Shown here one piece after another: positions 25,295-33,029 of a stretch of 64,000 nucleotides of DNA. The stretch spans positions 1 to 64,000 of the forward strand of contig DATJAL010000016.1 in NCBI GenBank assembly GCA_035516255.1, in the 5' to 3' direction. How positions within the stretch are numbered: position 1 is the first letter of the stretch; every line of letters starts with the position of its first letter. The DNA is from Chitinivibrionales bacterium. GTDB taxonomy: Bacteria; Fibrobacterota; Chitinivibrionia; Chitinivibrionales; FEN-1185. Position numbers and translations under genes: made by a program. The notes beneath the pieces were generated by a model that did not search any database, was not told the origin of the DNA, and saw only the letters and a program-made list of their open reading frames with translations.

Positions 25295-28200
25295 TTATTT
25301 CACCAGGAAGACGGGTTTGCGGATGACGGTCACCTTGCCGGTTGCGCCGTTCTTAAAATAGAAAACATAAACGTACGCTCCCGCGCCTGCGAACCTGTTT
25401 GCGGAATTCACGCCTCTCCAAACCACGGAAAACGAGCCGGGAACCACTCTGGTGTTTTTCGGAACAAGTTGGACCACGAGGTCGCCGATAAGATCAAGAA
25501 TATGCAGCGACACTTCTCCTGAATCAGGCACCTGATAGGTGAGCGTCGCGCCCCTGCTGGATGAGACTGGATTCTCAGACCAGTAGGCATTGATCCCGGC
25601 CTGCCGTCCGAGGGAGGGCGCGCTCGCGAGGGCGCATCGTGCAGCCGCCGAAGTGTCGCTGCCCGCCGAATTCGTGACGATGACCCGGTAGCTTCCCGTG
25701 TCGCCGTACGCGACACCCTTGATCGTATAGACGGAATCCGCCGCGCCTGAAAGGGTCGCGCCGTTTTTGATCCACCGATACGCAAGCGGCCGTGTGCCGG
25801 TCGCCGACACTTTGAAGACAACGGTGTCGCCGAGCCTGGCGGCCGTGTTCGATACCGGCTGGAGGACGATCTTGGGCTTGACAATGGTCACTGTGCCATT
25901 CTCAACAGTCAACGTGGCCGCCTCGGAGGTGTCTGCGCCGTATCGGTTGGACGCGATCACGCGGTAAAGGCCCGAATCGGCGCCGGTTGCCGTTGGAATG
26001 ACGAGATTTCGCAGGGAATCGCCGACAAGGGCAAGCCCGTTTTTCTGCCATTGATACGTTACCGGGTCGGCGCTGAGAACGCTTACCGAGAAGGAAGCCG
26101 TGTCCCCGGCCTGAACGGTTATTGAAGCGGGATTCACCGTGATGATGGGCAGGTTGCCTACCGAGGATTTCGGCAGGACCGACAGTCTTGCCGCACTGGA
26201 ACTGTCGCTGCCCCAATTATTCGAAACAGCGGCCCGAAAGACGCCCGAATCCGAGAGCGCCGCGGCGGGAATCCTGTACATCGCGTTCGTCGCGCCGGGA
26301 ATAGGTAATCCGTTCTTCTGCCACTGATACGAAAGCGGGGTGGTGCCTTTTGCGGCAACCGTAAAAATCACCGAGTCGCCGACGATCGCCGTGACGGAAG
26401 ACGGCTGCCTGGTGATGACCGGTTTGTCAACGATGACCAGGGGCGCGCCGCGGGAGGTGTCGGCACCGTAGCCATTCGAAACAATGGCCCGGTACACGCC
26501 GGAATCGGCCGCGGACACCGCGGCAAGGGAAAAAAATGCGCTGGTTGCGTTAACAAGAGAGACTCCGTTCTTCTGCCATTGGTATGACAGCGGTGCCGCA
26601 CCCGATGCAATTACCGAGAAGGATGCCGCTATTCCCGTTACGGCGGTATCGGGCGACGGCTGCGCGGTGATGACGGGTGGTGTGCCTGAACCGGATGACG
26701 GCACCACGGTCAGCTTCGCCGCAACCGACGTATCGCTTCCCCACTGGTTCGACACGATGGCGCGGTAGAACCCGGAATCGTACATCGCCACCGGGGCGAT
26801 GAGATAATGTGCGGCAGTGGCGCCGCCGAGCGTCAATCCGAATTTCTGCCATGCATAGGACAGAGGTCCCGTTCCGATGGCCACGACGGTGAATGAAACA
26901 GAATCGCCCACCTGCACCGTTCTGGACGCCGGGTCAATAGTGATCTGCGGCCGTATGAATACCGTCAGTGATGCCTGAAGGGAGGTATCCGCACCGTACC
27001 TGTTTGACACGATCACGCGATACCGGCCGGAATCGGTCGGCGATGCGGACCCAATGGCATAGCTCGAGGCGTTCGCCCCGGCTATGGGTGCGCCGTTTTT
27101 CTGCCATTGATATATGAGAGTGTCGCTACTGGTTGCCGTCACCGAAAACGCCGCCCTTGCCCCCACCACCACCGCCTGCGAGGCAGGCTGCGTCGTTATG
27201 ACAGGTTTACTTCCCGAAACGGGCTTCGGCTTTACCGTCAGGAACGCGGCCTGCGATGTGTCGCTGCCCCAGTTGTTCGAGACAATGACGCGGTAGTTCC
27301 CCGAGTCACCCAAGGCGACGCCGGCCTTCAGATAGGTAGGACTTGTTGCGCCTGCAATGACGGCCCCGTTTTTCTGCCATTGATAAGTAAGAAGCCCTGT
27401 GCCGCCGGCGGTCACGGAAAATAACACGGTATCGCCGACCATCGCGGTCCGCGAGGACGGCTGGCTGGTGATGAGTGGCCGCTGTACCACGGTTAAATGA
27501 GCGGGGTTCGAGGCAACCGAGCCCGCGCTGTTCGAAACCACGACCGTGTAATTTCCGGAATCGCTCAGCGCCGCCGCGGGGATCGTGTAGCCCGTCGTGT
27601 CCGCGCCTGCAATGTTCACCCCGTTTTTTTGCCATTGAAAAGAAATCATGCCCCCGCCGGTGCTCGCCGTAACGATGAATGTCGCGGTCTGACCAACCAA
27701 AACGGTCAAAGGAGATGGCTGCTGGACAATCACTGGCTTCTGCTGTGCGGGATTGCCTGTTACATACAAAACGGCCTCCGCCGAGGTGTCTTTACCAAAG
27801 GGATTGGTGGCGATCAGCCTGAAAGCCGCGCCTGAATCGCTTGTCTGCGCCGACGTAATGATATAATAGAGGTTTGTGGCGCCGGCGATGTCCGCTCTGT
27901 TGCGCTGCCATTGGAAGGTGATCGGGGCGCTGCCGCTTACCGTGGCGGTAAACATCGCCGGGTTGCCCTGCACGACCGCAACCGACAGCGGATCGGTCGT
28001 GATGTTCGGCTTTTGTCCCACCCTCAGGACGGCGGCTGCTGACGAATCCCTGCCGAAACCGTTGGTGACTGTCACGCTATAATACCCTGAATCTGCAAGC
28101 TGCACTGAAGCTATGGTATACAAAGGGGAAACTGCCCCGCGTATCCTTGCGCCGTTTTTATACCATTGATACGCCAGCGGCGCCGTGCCGCTGGCCGCCA

Positions 28201-29152
28201 CGGAAAACTGGGCCATCGTGCCTACCGCGGCCGATATTGAAACGGGCTGCTGAGTTATCGTCGGTTTTTGTCCGATCACAGTCAGGCGGCCGGTGCTTGA
28301 TGTATCCCTGGCATAAGCGTTTGCGGCAATCACTCGGTACATTCCCGTATCGGCGAGAGCGGCAGCCGTCACCGTGTAGCTTGACAAGGTCGCTCCGGCA
28401 ATGTTTCTCCATGCGGCGGGACCGCCTGGAAAACCAGCGATGAAGCGCTGCCATTGATAGGTCATCGGCGCCGCGCCCCAGGCGGTGACCGAAAGTGTGA
28501 TGGAACTGCCCGCATTGACAGATGTGTCCCTGAGATCGTTCTGGAAAACGATTCCCACAACGGTGAGGGTCGCCTTGTTGGAAGTGACACTGCCCGCGGC
28601 GTTGCTGACAATGACCGTGTAACTTCCTGGGCTGCCGTATCCAATGTTATCGATTGCCAAAGCGGAACTCGTGGCTCCTGGAATATCGGTCCCGTCTTTC
28701 TGCCACTGGTACGAGAGCGGCGAGCCGGTGGCCGATACCGTGAACACCACCGACCCTCCGAGATACATGGTCTGGGAGACGGGCTGGACCGTGATCGAAG
28801 GACTTTGCACCACCACCAGATTGGCAATAGCCGACGTGTCCCGCTGAATCCTGAATCCGCCCGGGCCACCGGTAAACTTTGAAACGATCACGAAATAGGC
28901 GGCGGCATCGGTCAGGGCCGCGGCCCTGATGGTGTAGGTGGCGGCTCCGGTTCCCGGCCCAGTGATGAGCGCGCCGTTCTTGTACCATTGATACAGGTAG
29001 GGCCCGCCCGCCGCCACGCCGACGGTGAATGACGCCGGTTGACCCACTTGAACGGTGTCGGACTGCGGCTGCTGCGTTATGATGGCCTGGGCGCGGGCCT
29101 GGAGAACGACCGCGAAAATCAGAAACAGGGACGATAAAACCTTTTTTTCCAT
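25295..29152 (-). CDS. Giant secreted protein with 13 Ig-like domains and a C-terminal FlgD-like domain
   Basis: This 1285-aa protein starts at ATG 29152 with AAGGGG upstream; the 25-codon extension before it is unneeded. After the signal peptide (LSSLFLIFAVVLQARA) come 13 tandem Ig-like domains of about 85-90 residues. The consensus is ITxQPxSxTVxVG, YQWQKNGxxIxGAT, DSGxYRVIVSN, DTSxxAxLTV. Domains 7-12 repeat as pairs: WGSDTS-type alternates with YGADTS-type, and the linkers alternate short and Pro/Ser/Gly-rich. The last ~110 residues form a FlgD-like/sorting domain (LHILDLIGDLVVQL, GAYVYVFYFKNGA). It probably acts as a surface adhesin or extended stalk. It is co-directional with the PorV-like gene. 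Confidence 0.85.
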   Translation of the reverse strand: MEKKVLSSLFLIFAVVLQARAQAIITQQPQSDTVQVGQPASFTVGVAAGGPYLYQWYKNGALITGPGTGAATYTIRAAALTDAAAYFVIVSKFTGGPGGFRIQRDTSAIANLVVVQSPSITVQPVSQTMYLGGSVVFTVSATGSPLSYQWQKDGTDIPGATSSALAIDNIGYGSPGSYTVIVSNAAGSVTSNKATLTVVGIVFQNDLRDTSVNAGSSITLSVTAWGAAPMTYQWQRFIAGFPGGPAAWRNIAGATLSSYTVTAAALADTGMYRVIAANAYARDTSSTGRLTVIGQKPTITQQPVSISAAVGTMAQFSVAASGTAPLAYQWYKNGARIRGAVSPLYTIASVQLADSGYYSVTVTNGFGRDSSAAAVLRVGQKPNITTDPLSVAVVQGNPAMFTATVSGSAPITFQWQRNRADIAGATNLYYIITSAQTSDSGAAFRLIATNPFGKDTSAEAVLYVTGNPAQQKPVIVQQPSPLTVLVGQTATFIVTASTGGGMISFQWQKNGVNIAGADTTGYTIPAAALSDSGNYTVVVSNSAGSVASNPAHLTVVQRPLITSQPSSRTAMVGDTVLFSVTAGGTGLLTYQWQKNGAVIAGATSPTYLKAGVALGDSGNYRVIVSNNWGSDTSQAAFLTVKPKPVSGSKPVITTQPASQAVVVGARAAFSVTATSSDTLIYQWQKNGAPIAGANASSYAIGSASPTDSGRYRVIVSNRYGADTSLQASLTVFIRPQITIDPASRTVQVGDSVSFTVVAIGTGPLSYAWQKFGLTLGGATAAHYLIAPVAMYDSGFYRAIVSNQWGSDTSVAAKLTVVPSSGSGTPPVITAQPSPDTAVTGIAASFSVIASGAAPLSYQWQKNGVSLVNATSAFFSLAAVSAADSGVYRAIVSNGYGADTSRGAPLVIVDKPVITRQPSSVTAIVGDSVIFTVAAKGTTPLSYQWQKNGLPIPGATNAMYRIPAAALSDSGVFRAAVSNNWGSDSSSAARLSVLPKSSVGNLPIITVNPASITVQAGDTASFSVSVLSADPVTYQWQKNGLALVGDSLRNLVIPTATGADSGLYRVIASNRYGADTSEAATLTVENGTVTIVKPKIVLQPVSNTAARLGDTVVFKVSATGTRPLAYRWIKNGATLSGAADSVYTIKGVAYGDTGSYRVIVTNSAGSDTSAAARCALASAPSLGRQAGINAYWSENPVSSSRGATLTYQVPDSGEVSLHILDLIGDLVVQLVPKNTRVVPGSFSVVWRGVNSANRFAGAGAYVYVFYFKNGATGKVTVIRKPVFLVK

Positions 29153-29641
29153 AATTTCCCCTTTAAGCGTATCTGCGTCCTGAAAATTCGAAGATGGAGA
29201 GCGCTGACAAGCGAGACTTCTTGACACCGGGAGATTTTTCCCTGCCGCGGCGCCACCCGCCCCATTCCGCGGCCGTTGACATAATTATAATTTGATGATT
29301 TCGTTTTGTCCAGTAATTAATATTGTCAAATCATACTTAACAAAACATAGTAGAAATGGGCATTCCCCCGCCTCGCACCTTCGGGCGAGGCGGGGTCGGT
29401 TCTCCTTCCGGTCTCGCCTTCGGCTCGGGCTGCCACGGCGCGAGGCCGCTCCGCGGGGCGCCGGGCAGCACCGCGCTCCAGCGCGGCCTCCAGTCGCCCC
29501 TAACGCGCAGCATCAAGTCAAATCCGGCATTTTTCTTTCCCCCTTATCAAGGGGGAAACCGCCGGAGGCGGAGGGGGATGTACCGCAATGGTTGCGTTGC
29601 ACACGGGATTTCGCGGAATACTTACAGAATGACTGCGAAGG
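29153..29641. other. Gene-free spacer carrying repeat B and a C5/G5 hairpin
   Basis: It should hold the promoter of the Ig-repeat gene (29153-29340, AT-rich part). It also holds family B copy 3 and a perfect 10-bp hairpin at 29536-29558 (TTTCCCCCTT/AAGGGGGAAA). The hairpin has no U-tract on the minus strand and so is not a classical terminator for the gene ending at 29642. No gene is visible. Confidence 0.5.
29359..29508 (-). repeat. Structured dispersed repeat, family B, copy 3 (inverted)
   Basis: Read on the minus strand it follows copy 1 closely, from GCGTTAGGGGCGACTGGAGG through CCGTGGCAGCC and GGAAGGAGAACCGACCC. Loop and stem bases differ in paired fashion: CCGCT/AGCGG in copy 1 versus CCGCGC/GCGCGG here. 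The terminal hairpin is CCCCGCCTCGC with GCGAGGCGGGG. Confidence 0.7.
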
Positions 29642-30707: not shown

Positions 30708-33029
30708 TTAATCTCTTGTTTGTACCGCCTCAATATGCCCGATTGCTCCGGTCGCAATATTTGCCGCGTTCGCCTCATCGGTGTCAATGTGCATTGCCAA
30801 TCTAAACTGTGGATTAACTCTTATGAGCACGTCGCCGAAAATGAGCTCGCGGTCGCCCTCGACGCGCACGCGCACCTTGAACTTGTCGCGCAGCCCGAAC
30901 TTGAGCGCGTCCTCGGTTGACATGTGGATATGGCGCAGCGCGCAGATCACGCCTCTCGGGATGGTGATCGGGCCGGCCGGCCCCTCGATGGTGATGCCGG
31001 GCGTGTTCTCCAGGTCGCCCGACTCGCGGATGGGCGGGTGGATGCCGAGCTTGAACTGCTCGGTCATGGCGATCTCCACCTGGGTCTCCTTGCGCTCGGG
31101 CCCGAGCACGCGCACGCGCTCAACGCGGCCCTTGGGCCCCACGAGGTTCACGCTCTCCCTGCACGCGAACTGGCCGGGTTGCGACAGTTCGTGCTCGGGC
31201 GTGAGGCTGTGGCCGGCGCCGAACAGCGCCGCGACGTGCTCGACTGACAAATGCACGTGATGCGCCGACACCTCGATGGGCACCGGCGTGTTTTTCTGCG
31301 TCTGGATGATGTCGCCGATGTAGCCCGACGACACGGCGCGGACGGTCTCGCGCGCGATCATGCGCTCCTCGTCGGTCGGCACCACCAGGATGCGCACGGC
31401 CGAGCCGTCGGTTGATATGTCGGAAATCTCCTTGAACCCGTCGGCGCTCCTGTTTTTCTTTTCGTCAAGGTCTATGCCCATGTGCGCCAGGCCCTGGCAC
31501 GCGAGGCTGCGCACGCCCGCGCTCCCCTGCCCGATGCCGCCGGTGAAGATGAGCGCGTCGAGCCCCTGCATGGCCGCCACGTACGCGCCGATGTACTTGC
31601 GGATCTGGTAGCAGAACGTCTTGTAGGCAAGCAGCGCGCGGTGATGTCCCTGCTGCGCGGCCTTCTCGATTTCCCGCATGTCATTGGTGATGCCCGACAT
31701 TCCCAAGAAGCCGCTCTTGTTGTTGATGAGCTTTTCCAGTTCGTCGGCCTCCATGTGCTCGGTGCGCATCAGGTGGATGAGGATGCCCGGGTCAAGGTCG
31801 CCGCTGCGCGTTCCCATGATGAGCCCCTGCGTGGGGGTGAACCCCATGGTGGTGTCCACGGACCGGCCGTGGTCCACCGCGGCCAGCGACGCGCCGTTGC
31901 CGAGATGGCATGAGATGATTTCGAGCCCGTTGAACGACCGCTTGAGGAACTCCGCTGCCTTGAGCGACACGTACAAATGCGACGTGCCGTGGAACCCGTA
32001 CCGCCGGATTTTTTTCTCTTTGTAAAGTTCGTAGGGCAGGCCGTACATGTAGGCGTACGGCGGCAGCGTGTGGTGGAACCCGGTGTCGAACACGGCCACG
32101 TGCGGCACGTGCGGAAACAGGTTCATGGCCTCGCGTATGCCCACGAGGTTCACCGGGTTGTGTAGAGGCGCGAGCGTCGCGGCCTCCTCGATGGCGGCAA
32201 TTACTTCCTTCGTAATGACAACCGGTGTGGTGAGTTTGTCGCCGCCGTGCACCACGCGGTGGCCGACTGCCGTGATGTCGGCGGCGCTTTCCATGGCGCC
32301 GACCGCCTTTGATGAAAGCGCGTCCATCATGGCGAGAAACGCCTCCTTATGGCCGCCCGGTTTCGGTGCGGCCACCGACACTTCCTTGTCCGCCACGCGG
32401 CAGGTGTGTTTCGCCCCCTCGTCGCCGATCCGCTCGATTGCCCCGCGCACCACTCGCGCCTCGTTCGCCGTGTCGAACAGCGAGTACTTGAGCGACGACG
32501 AGCCGCAATTGACAACCAGTAATTTTGACGGCGTGTCGGTCGAAAGCTTGAGGCCGTACGGGTCGTCGCTTTTCTGCAGCGCCTCGGCCGCCAGGTTGTG
32601 CACCGTGGCCCACTGTGCCATGCGCTCGCTCAGCTCCCGCGAAAGGTAGCGTATGGCGGGCGGATAGGTGATGAGCGCCGTGGAAAAAAGCTGTTGCGGA
32701 ATGAGAAGCGCCTCGCAGCGCGTGATGCCGATGACGTTGGCAAGCGTCTGGTTGCCGGTCATCAGGGAGATCTCGCCGAAAATGTCGCCCGCCTCCATCT
32801 TCGAGAGCTGCACCTTGCGGCCGGTGTTGTCGGTGACCGCGGCCTCGGCCGTGCCCGAAAGGAGCACGCCGAGAAACCTTCCCTCCTCACCGAACTCGAT
32901 GACCGCCTCGTTTCCCTCGAACGTGCTGAGCCGCGAGCCGTCGATCAGCTCCCTGAGCCGCTCTTCGGGAAAGCCCTTGAACAATTCGACTTTTTCCTGG
33001 AGGAATTTCAGCAGTTCCTGCGTTTCCAT
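30708..33029 (-). CDS. Three-domain fusion: cNMP-binding domain - acetate kinase - PduL phosphotransacylase
   Basis: This 773-aa protein has three parts. Residues ~10-130 are a cyclic-nucleotide-binding (CAP_ED) domain (GDIFGEISLMTGNQTLANVIG). Residues ~167-560 are a complete acetate kinase: VNCGSSSLKYS, HRVVHGGD, VFDTGFHHTLP, YGFHGTSH, CHLGNGAS, GTRSGDLDPG and FTGGIG. Residues ~581-773 are a PduL-type phosphate acyltransferase (SAHHVHLS, ALRHIHMS, ending with the FGDVLIRV and MHIDTDEANAAN segments). The acetate kinase and PduL parts can together turn acetyl-CoA plus Pi plus ADP into acetate, CoA and ATP. The N-terminal domain suggests allosteric control by cAMP/cGMP or another ligand. ATG 33029 has AAGGA upstream. 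The reading is confident; the regulation is inference. Confidence 0.95.
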   Translation of the reverse strand: METQELLKFLQEKVELFKGFPEERLRELIDGSRLSTFEGNEAVIEFGEEGRFLGVLLSGTAEAAVTDNTGRKVQLSKMEAGDIFGEISLMTGNQTLANVIGITRCEALLIPQQLFSTALITYPPAIRYLSRELSERMAQWATVHNLAAEALQKSDDPYGLKLSTDTPSKLLVVNCGSSSLKYSLFDTANEARVVRGAIERIGDEGAKHTCRVADKEVSVAAPKPGGHKEAFLAMMDALSSKAVGAMESAADITAVGHRVVHGGDKLTTPVVITKEVIAAIEEAATLAPLHNPVNLVGIREAMNLFPHVPHVAVFDTGFHHTLPPYAYMYGLPYELYKEKKIRRYGFHGTSHLYVSLKAAEFLKRSFNGLEIISCHLGNGASLAAVDHGRSVDTTMGFTPTQGLIMGTRSGDLDPGILIHLMRTEHMEADELEKLINNKSGFLGMSGITNDMREIEKAAQQGHHRALLAYKTFCYQIRKYIGAYVAAMQGLDALIFTGGIGQGSAGVRSLACQGLAHMGIDLDEKKNRSADGFKEISDISTDGSAVRILVVPTDEERMIARETVRAVSSGYIGDIIQTQKNTPVPIEVSAHHVHLSVEHVAALFGAGHSLTPEHELSQPGQFACRESVNLVGPKGRVERVRVLGPERKETQVEIAMTEQFKLGIHPPIRESGDLENTPGITIEGPAGPITIPRGVICALRHIHMSTEDALKFGLRDKFKVRVRVEGDRELIFGDVLIRVNPQFRLAMHIDTDEANAANIATGAIGHIEAVQTRD

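Follow-up and report, generated by a model that had tools for sequence, protein, structure and literature searches.

Acetyl phosphate is a metabolic intermediate and also a donor of phosphoryl and acetyl groups in bacterial signaling. In the window, a 64,000-nucleotide stretch of a Chitinivibrionales genome (G000), one reading frame joins a cyclic nucleotide-binding (CNB) fold to an acetate kinase (AckA) and the phosphotransacylase PduL, which raises the question of what such a protein does for its host and what, if anything, its N-terminal domain answers to. Overall, we consider it very probable that this is a bifunctional acetate-node enzyme that replaces the pta-ackA pair and carries a regulatory or oligomerization CNB domain unlikely to bind cAMP or cGMP. 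The features on which the analysis turns are as follows.

30708..33029, minus strand: CNB-AckA-PduL fusion open reading frame, stop codon included, 773 aa
33037..33041, minus strand: AAGGA, a Shine-Dalgarno-like element read from the sequence 5′ of the fusion ATG, at a spacing of 7 bases
32673..32924, minus strand: cNMP_binding (CNB/CAP_ED) domain, residues 36-119 (PF00027, E 1.4e-13; matched by Foldseek to the regulatory domains of PKG and PKA)
32733..32780, minus strand: equivalent of the phosphate-binding cassette, residues 84-99, FGEISLMTGNQTLANV, with Glu86 retained and Thr95 in place of Arg by comparison with PMC10959531
31350..32525, minus strand: acetate kinase domain, residues 169-560 (PF00871, E 1.8e-145), catalytic and ATP-site residues intact
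31281..31349, minus strand: AckA-PduL junction, residues 561-583, short, into which the last AckA helix (554-577) continues in the AlphaFold2 model, with five further residues after it
30756..31280, minus strand: PduL phosphotransacylase domain, residues 584-758 (PF06130 (PTAC), E 2.8e-76), zinc ligands complete

The frame opens with ATG, contains no internal stop codon and scores above the family cut-offs in all three domains, so that the single 773-aa chain described in the first-pass annotation is confirmed to the exact ORF. PF00027 identified the CNB fold with 51.1 bits (cut-off 27.5), PF00871 and TIGR00016 assigned the kinase to the AckA subfamily with 485 (cut-off 22) and 474 (cut-off 293), and PF06130 and NF011652 identified PduL with 255.7 (cut-off 25) and 260.9 (cut-off 209); NCBIfam thus concurs with Pfam on both enzyme domains. 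An AlphaFold2 model (mean pLDDT 78.7, pTM 0.64) is usable for the individual domains, with their relative placement uncertain. Foldseek matched its AckA part to the Methanosarcina thermophila enzyme (TM 0.91, by target), its PduL part to 5CUO (TM 0.76) and its N-terminal part to regulatory domains of PKG and of trypanosome PKA. In the model, the last AckA helix reaches residue 577 and the first PduL strand begins five residues on.

Could separate genes have been joined through an assembly error, as the first-pass annotation allowed? Among the matches listed, the closest full-length homologue is from Fibrobacteres fen_1185 (79% identity), and one from Chitinivibrionales STD1_157 is 77% identical; by the kinship of these nearest matches, G000 is a MAG of the Fibrobacterota. 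Because full-length three-domain relatives exist at these and lower identities, with the same frame open across many independent assemblies that include complete genomes, a false join or frameshift artefact is ruled out; we found no support for it, and its probability is vanishingly small. A search for the CAP_ED, AckA and PduL architecture likewise showed the three-domain form to be widespread in public genomes. Searching the phylum yielded complete copies in 11 genomes from the order of G000. A scan of GTDB species genomes confirmed 166 relatives; the 80 best, which were kept, all match most of the three domains. Our alignment set, with duplicates removed, holds 88 non-identical three-domain proteins. 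Rhodocyclales-type Betaproteobacteria dominate it, and Fibrobacterota, Planctomycetota (including Brocadia), Verrucomicrobiota, Spirochaetota, Myxococcota and Bacteroidota (one MAG) are also represented, although taxon labels of MAGs may be wrong in places.

The surroundings of the gene suggest no operon. Its neighbors encode an Ig-repeat protein, a DUF6498 protein, an ExbD-like protein and then arginine biosynthesis, the last identified by reading the ORFs. Clustering of neighboring genes over the fusion loci returned no conserved operon, the most widely shared partner occurring in at most 14 loci, with a crude gene caller that overlooked the fusion gene itself in ten. The Ig-repeat protein (25295-29227 of the window, minus strand; 1310 aa) has about 12 Ig-like repeats and, as read from its sequence, a sorting-type C-terminal tail.

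Residue mapping substantiated the earlier statement that all AckA catalytic motifs and both PduL zinc motifs are present. All nine AckA residues considered (N7, R91, H123, D148, H180, N211, R241, G331 and E384 in M. thermophila numbering) have their counterparts in the fusion, as N174, R258, H290, D315, H347, N378, R408, G498 and E554. The PduL domain aligns without gaps to Rhodopseudomonas palustris PduL (5CUO); its zinc ligands H48, H50, E109, H157, H159 and H204 correspond to H591, H593, E652, H700, H702 and H747, and the phosphate contact R103 to R646. The only difference among the PduL residues checked is a His at the position of Lys70, a CoA contact in 5CUO, and all the others are invariant in 88 of 88 aligned fusion proteins. 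Such completeness in both sets, judged at the level of sequence, is far beyond chance and supports a bifunctional enzyme with two complete active sites and predicted AckA and PduL activities.

Why the fusion uses PduL becomes clearer at the level of the genome. G000 contains one AckA match and one PduL match, both of which are the fusion ORF, and searches for Pta, the BMC shell protein PF00936 and phosphoketolase returned no match there. A microcompartment origin was accordingly rejected for this genome, as BMC shell genes are absent, as was phosphoketolase as an alternative source of acetyl phosphate. Within the order, Pta accompanies the fusion in 1 of 11 genomes and is found in 8 of 10 that possess AckA but lack PduL (Fisher p = 0.0019, with kinship ignored). 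Since Pta is mostly absent beside the fusion and mostly present beside unfused AckA, the PduL domain most likely stands in for Pta. The one exception, G037, has both the fusion and Pta and counts against this replacement.

At a di-zinc site, the PduL domain would interconvert acetyl-CoA and Pi with acetyl phosphate and CoA; the AckA domain would interconvert acetyl phosphate and ADP with acetate and ATP. A single gene would in this way replace the usual pta-ackA pair, and no other such pair was found in G000. Net flow from acetyl-CoA to acetate and ATP is most likely, in an organism that is presumably fermentative. Holding the two sites at 1:1 and near each other may reduce the time for which acetyl phosphate persists. 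The N-terminal CNB-fold domain would be an added module with a regulatory or oligomerization role, whose ligand, if any, is likelier to be uncharged (a nucleoside, for example) or another metabolite than cAMP or cGMP.

The CNB domain is a separable module, because AckA-PduL proteins without it exist in Polaromonas and Paracoccus and a CNB-AckA protein without PduL exists in G026. The former are plasmid-borne and listed as 'acetate/propionate family kinase'; the latter (L013:1486-3204) has 573 aa, and its genome encodes a separate Pta. On the Polaromonas plasmid pPNAP02, the AckA-PduL gene (L118:5998-7779) is flanked by fabI and a DUF3141 gene, with ppk2 nearby. On a Sinorhizobium meliloti plasmid, the annotation splits the AckA-PduL locus (L119:5998-7795) into a kinase gene and a second gene for a short piece of PduL; a stop or frameshift has probably disrupted this copy. 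Elsewhere, a 701-aa open frame near a fusion gene (L060:7982-10084) matches acetate kinase at 306-694; its roughly 300 N-terminal residues have no Pfam match, and the extension may be non-coding. Besides its copy of the fusion, the related MAG G032 has a separate BMC locus (C187:1432-4911) that includes its own unfused PduL and a kinase resembling AckA; this genome gave five matches to BMC shell proteins.

To what might the CNB domain respond? In the phosphate-binding cassette of PKA, FGELALIYGTPRAATV, Glu200 contacts the ribose of the ligand. Arg209 binds the phosphate of the cyclic nucleotide (PMC10959531). The fusion has Glu86 at the former position and Thr95 at the latter; HMMER alignments against solved CNB domains place Thr95 at the same Arg position, and no Lys or Arg occurs anywhere within residues 84-99. 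The Arg is found in 0 of 88 aligned fusion proteins, with Thr replacing it in 39, mostly alongside a bulky next residue. All 29 members whose ATP site is normal retain the Glu86 equivalent, which in most of the others is replaced, mostly by Val. T91, G92, A97 and an acidic residue or Asn at 98 are strongly conserved across the set. The ligand-binding residues thus persist in part, the ribose-binding Glu being present and the phosphate-binding Arg missing. Since that Arg is lacking in the fusion and in every aligned relative, control by cAMP or cGMP, as the first-pass annotation envisaged it, appears unlikely. Some CNB domains may bind phosphate through other residues, and cAMP may be made in G000, which has three matches to the class III cyclase family.

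These observations bear unequally on the possible roles of the domain. A cyclic-nucleotide-controlled enzyme that hands acetyl phosphate between its sites without release would be in keeping with the CNB family match, the Glu kept here and in every ATP-type member, the cyclase-family matches, the fusion itself with its short AckA-PduL junction, and the channeling suggested for PduL-Ack fusions in the relevant passages of PMC4784909. The exchange of Arg for Thr, the absence of Arg throughout the set, the additional loss of the Glu from most betaproteobacterial members and a domain packing that is poorly defined in the model (pTM 0.64) all speak against it, and we regard it as highly improbable. 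A nucleoside-binding domain would have a precedent in the Trypanosoma brucei PKA, in which the same Arg is Thr or Asn and an extra Glu at the position of Ala202 leads to nucleoside binding (PMC10959531). If the fusion bound an uncharged nucleoside in the manner of trypanosomatid PKA regulatory subunits, acetate metabolism would be tied to purine status. The Arg-to-Thr change with its bulky neighbor favors this, as do the high-ranking Foldseek matches of the CNB domain to PKAR of T. brucei and T. cruzi and the Glu, Thr and Val/Ile pattern resembling T. brucei PKAR in L039, L042 and L012, the only members to have it. However, the fusion has Ser88 instead of the trypanosomatid-type Glu at the site that matters most for binding inosine, other PKA and PKG domains match equally well, and the pattern could reflect convergent loss; we therefore hold this to be unlikely.

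A domain that binds no ligand and serves solely to hold an oligomer together would fit with the lost Arg, with a cassette that is degenerate in the betaproteobacterial clade and with AckA-PduL fusions that do without a CNB domain. Strong conservation of T91, G92, A97 and position 98 speaks against it, and we give this account an appreciable but minority chance. The bifunctional replacement of pta-ackA, with a CNB domain that is regulatory or oligomerizing, remains our preferred reading of the protein.

A different divergence concerns the kinase. The ATP site is altered in 59 of the 88 members and normal in 29. Gly331, reported to be fully conserved throughout the ATP-dependent ACKs (PMC5517563), is Asp in 51 members; Ile or Val replaces Asn211 in 54, and Glu384 to Asp, Ser12 to Gln and Arg285 to His each occur in 56. 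On the acetate side, R91, D148, H180 and R241 do not vary in any of the 88 members, and H123 is present in 87. Of the 59 altered members, 58 (L058 and most of L050-L111) group in a single clade, mainly betaproteobacterial, that sits on a long stem and in which the PduL residues are conserved; the remaining one is L041, from Spirochaetales. Every altered-branch genome checked (11 of 11; ten betaproteobacterial and that of L041) carries at least one further AckA as well as Pta. In contrast, the kinase site is intact and the fusion is the only AckA in Brocadia (G170) and Hydrogenedentes (G177), the latter with one weak Pta-family match. In G179, the kinase site is likewise intact, and the AckA matches are the fusion and a short fragment. 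This pattern suggests that the altered branch was released from housekeeping and that its phosphoryl partner has changed or its kinase activity has been lost.

Pyrophosphate use by this branch is a guess, since the altered-branch sequences do not show the extended PHOSPHATE2 loop that the Entamoeba PPi enzyme has. The compound proposal that the CNB domain senses an uncharged, non-cyclic ligand through a switch like that of trypanosomatid PKA, and that the betaproteobacterial branch has given up ATP for another phosphoryl partner such as pyrophosphate, is in our view distinctly unlikely. If true, it would place a central-metabolic enzyme of bacteria under such a switch, and the altered branch would carry out acetyl-CoA:PPi-linked acetate chemistry. 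This branch, seen in relatives of Dechloromonas, Zoogloea and Azonexus, could contain an acetate kinase that depends on pyrophosphate or has been put to some other use.

More broadly, one chain that makes and consumes acetyl phosphate is a natural system for asking whether bacteria channel this intermediate. The family also presents PduL outside microcompartments, where it is likely the sole phosphotransacylase of an organism, and its N-terminal domain is a test case for which signals CNB domains answer to when the phosphate-binding Arg is missing.

In the openly licensed PMC literature, we found no paper on a protein combining an acetate kinase and a cyclic nucleotide-binding domain, and no description or assay of the CNB-bearing form, in agreement with the earlier statement that no enzyme of this arrangement had been characterized. 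The PduL-Ack fusion itself and the idea of channeling have been known since 2016: in its passages on PF06130 architectures, the study of Erbilgin et al. (PMC4784909) noted two such domains in multidomain proteins mostly annotated as Acks, and proposed that PduL may replace Pta in them and that fusion may aid channeling.

Comparison with known systems places the protein among these. It shares with separate Pta and AckA enzymes the same two reactions and an AckA domain that is a close homologue with an intact site, whereas acyl transfer falls to a di-zinc PduL, unrelated to Pta, on the same chain. Microcompartment-associated PduL (R. palustris, 5CUO) aligns without gaps and has all zinc ligands, but the fusion lacks an encapsulation peptide, is joined to AckA, has His for Lys70 and resides in a genome without BMC shell genes, which sets it apart from encapsulated PduL. 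Trypanosomatid PKA regulatory subunits resemble it in the Arg-to-Thr exchange of the cassette and the retained Glu200 equivalent, and differ in the Glu at Ala202, which the fusion lacks, and in an unrelated effector domain. The Polaromonas and Paracoccus plasmid proteins have the same domain order and complete zinc and nucleotide motifs, without the CNB domain. The PduL-Ack proteins of Erbilgin et al. similarly combine PF06130 with acetate kinase and lack an encapsulation peptide; an N-terminal CNB domain goes unmentioned in those passages, and none of the proteins is characterized there. The three-domain CNB-AckA-PduL protein is a widespread, uncharacterized variant of this theme.
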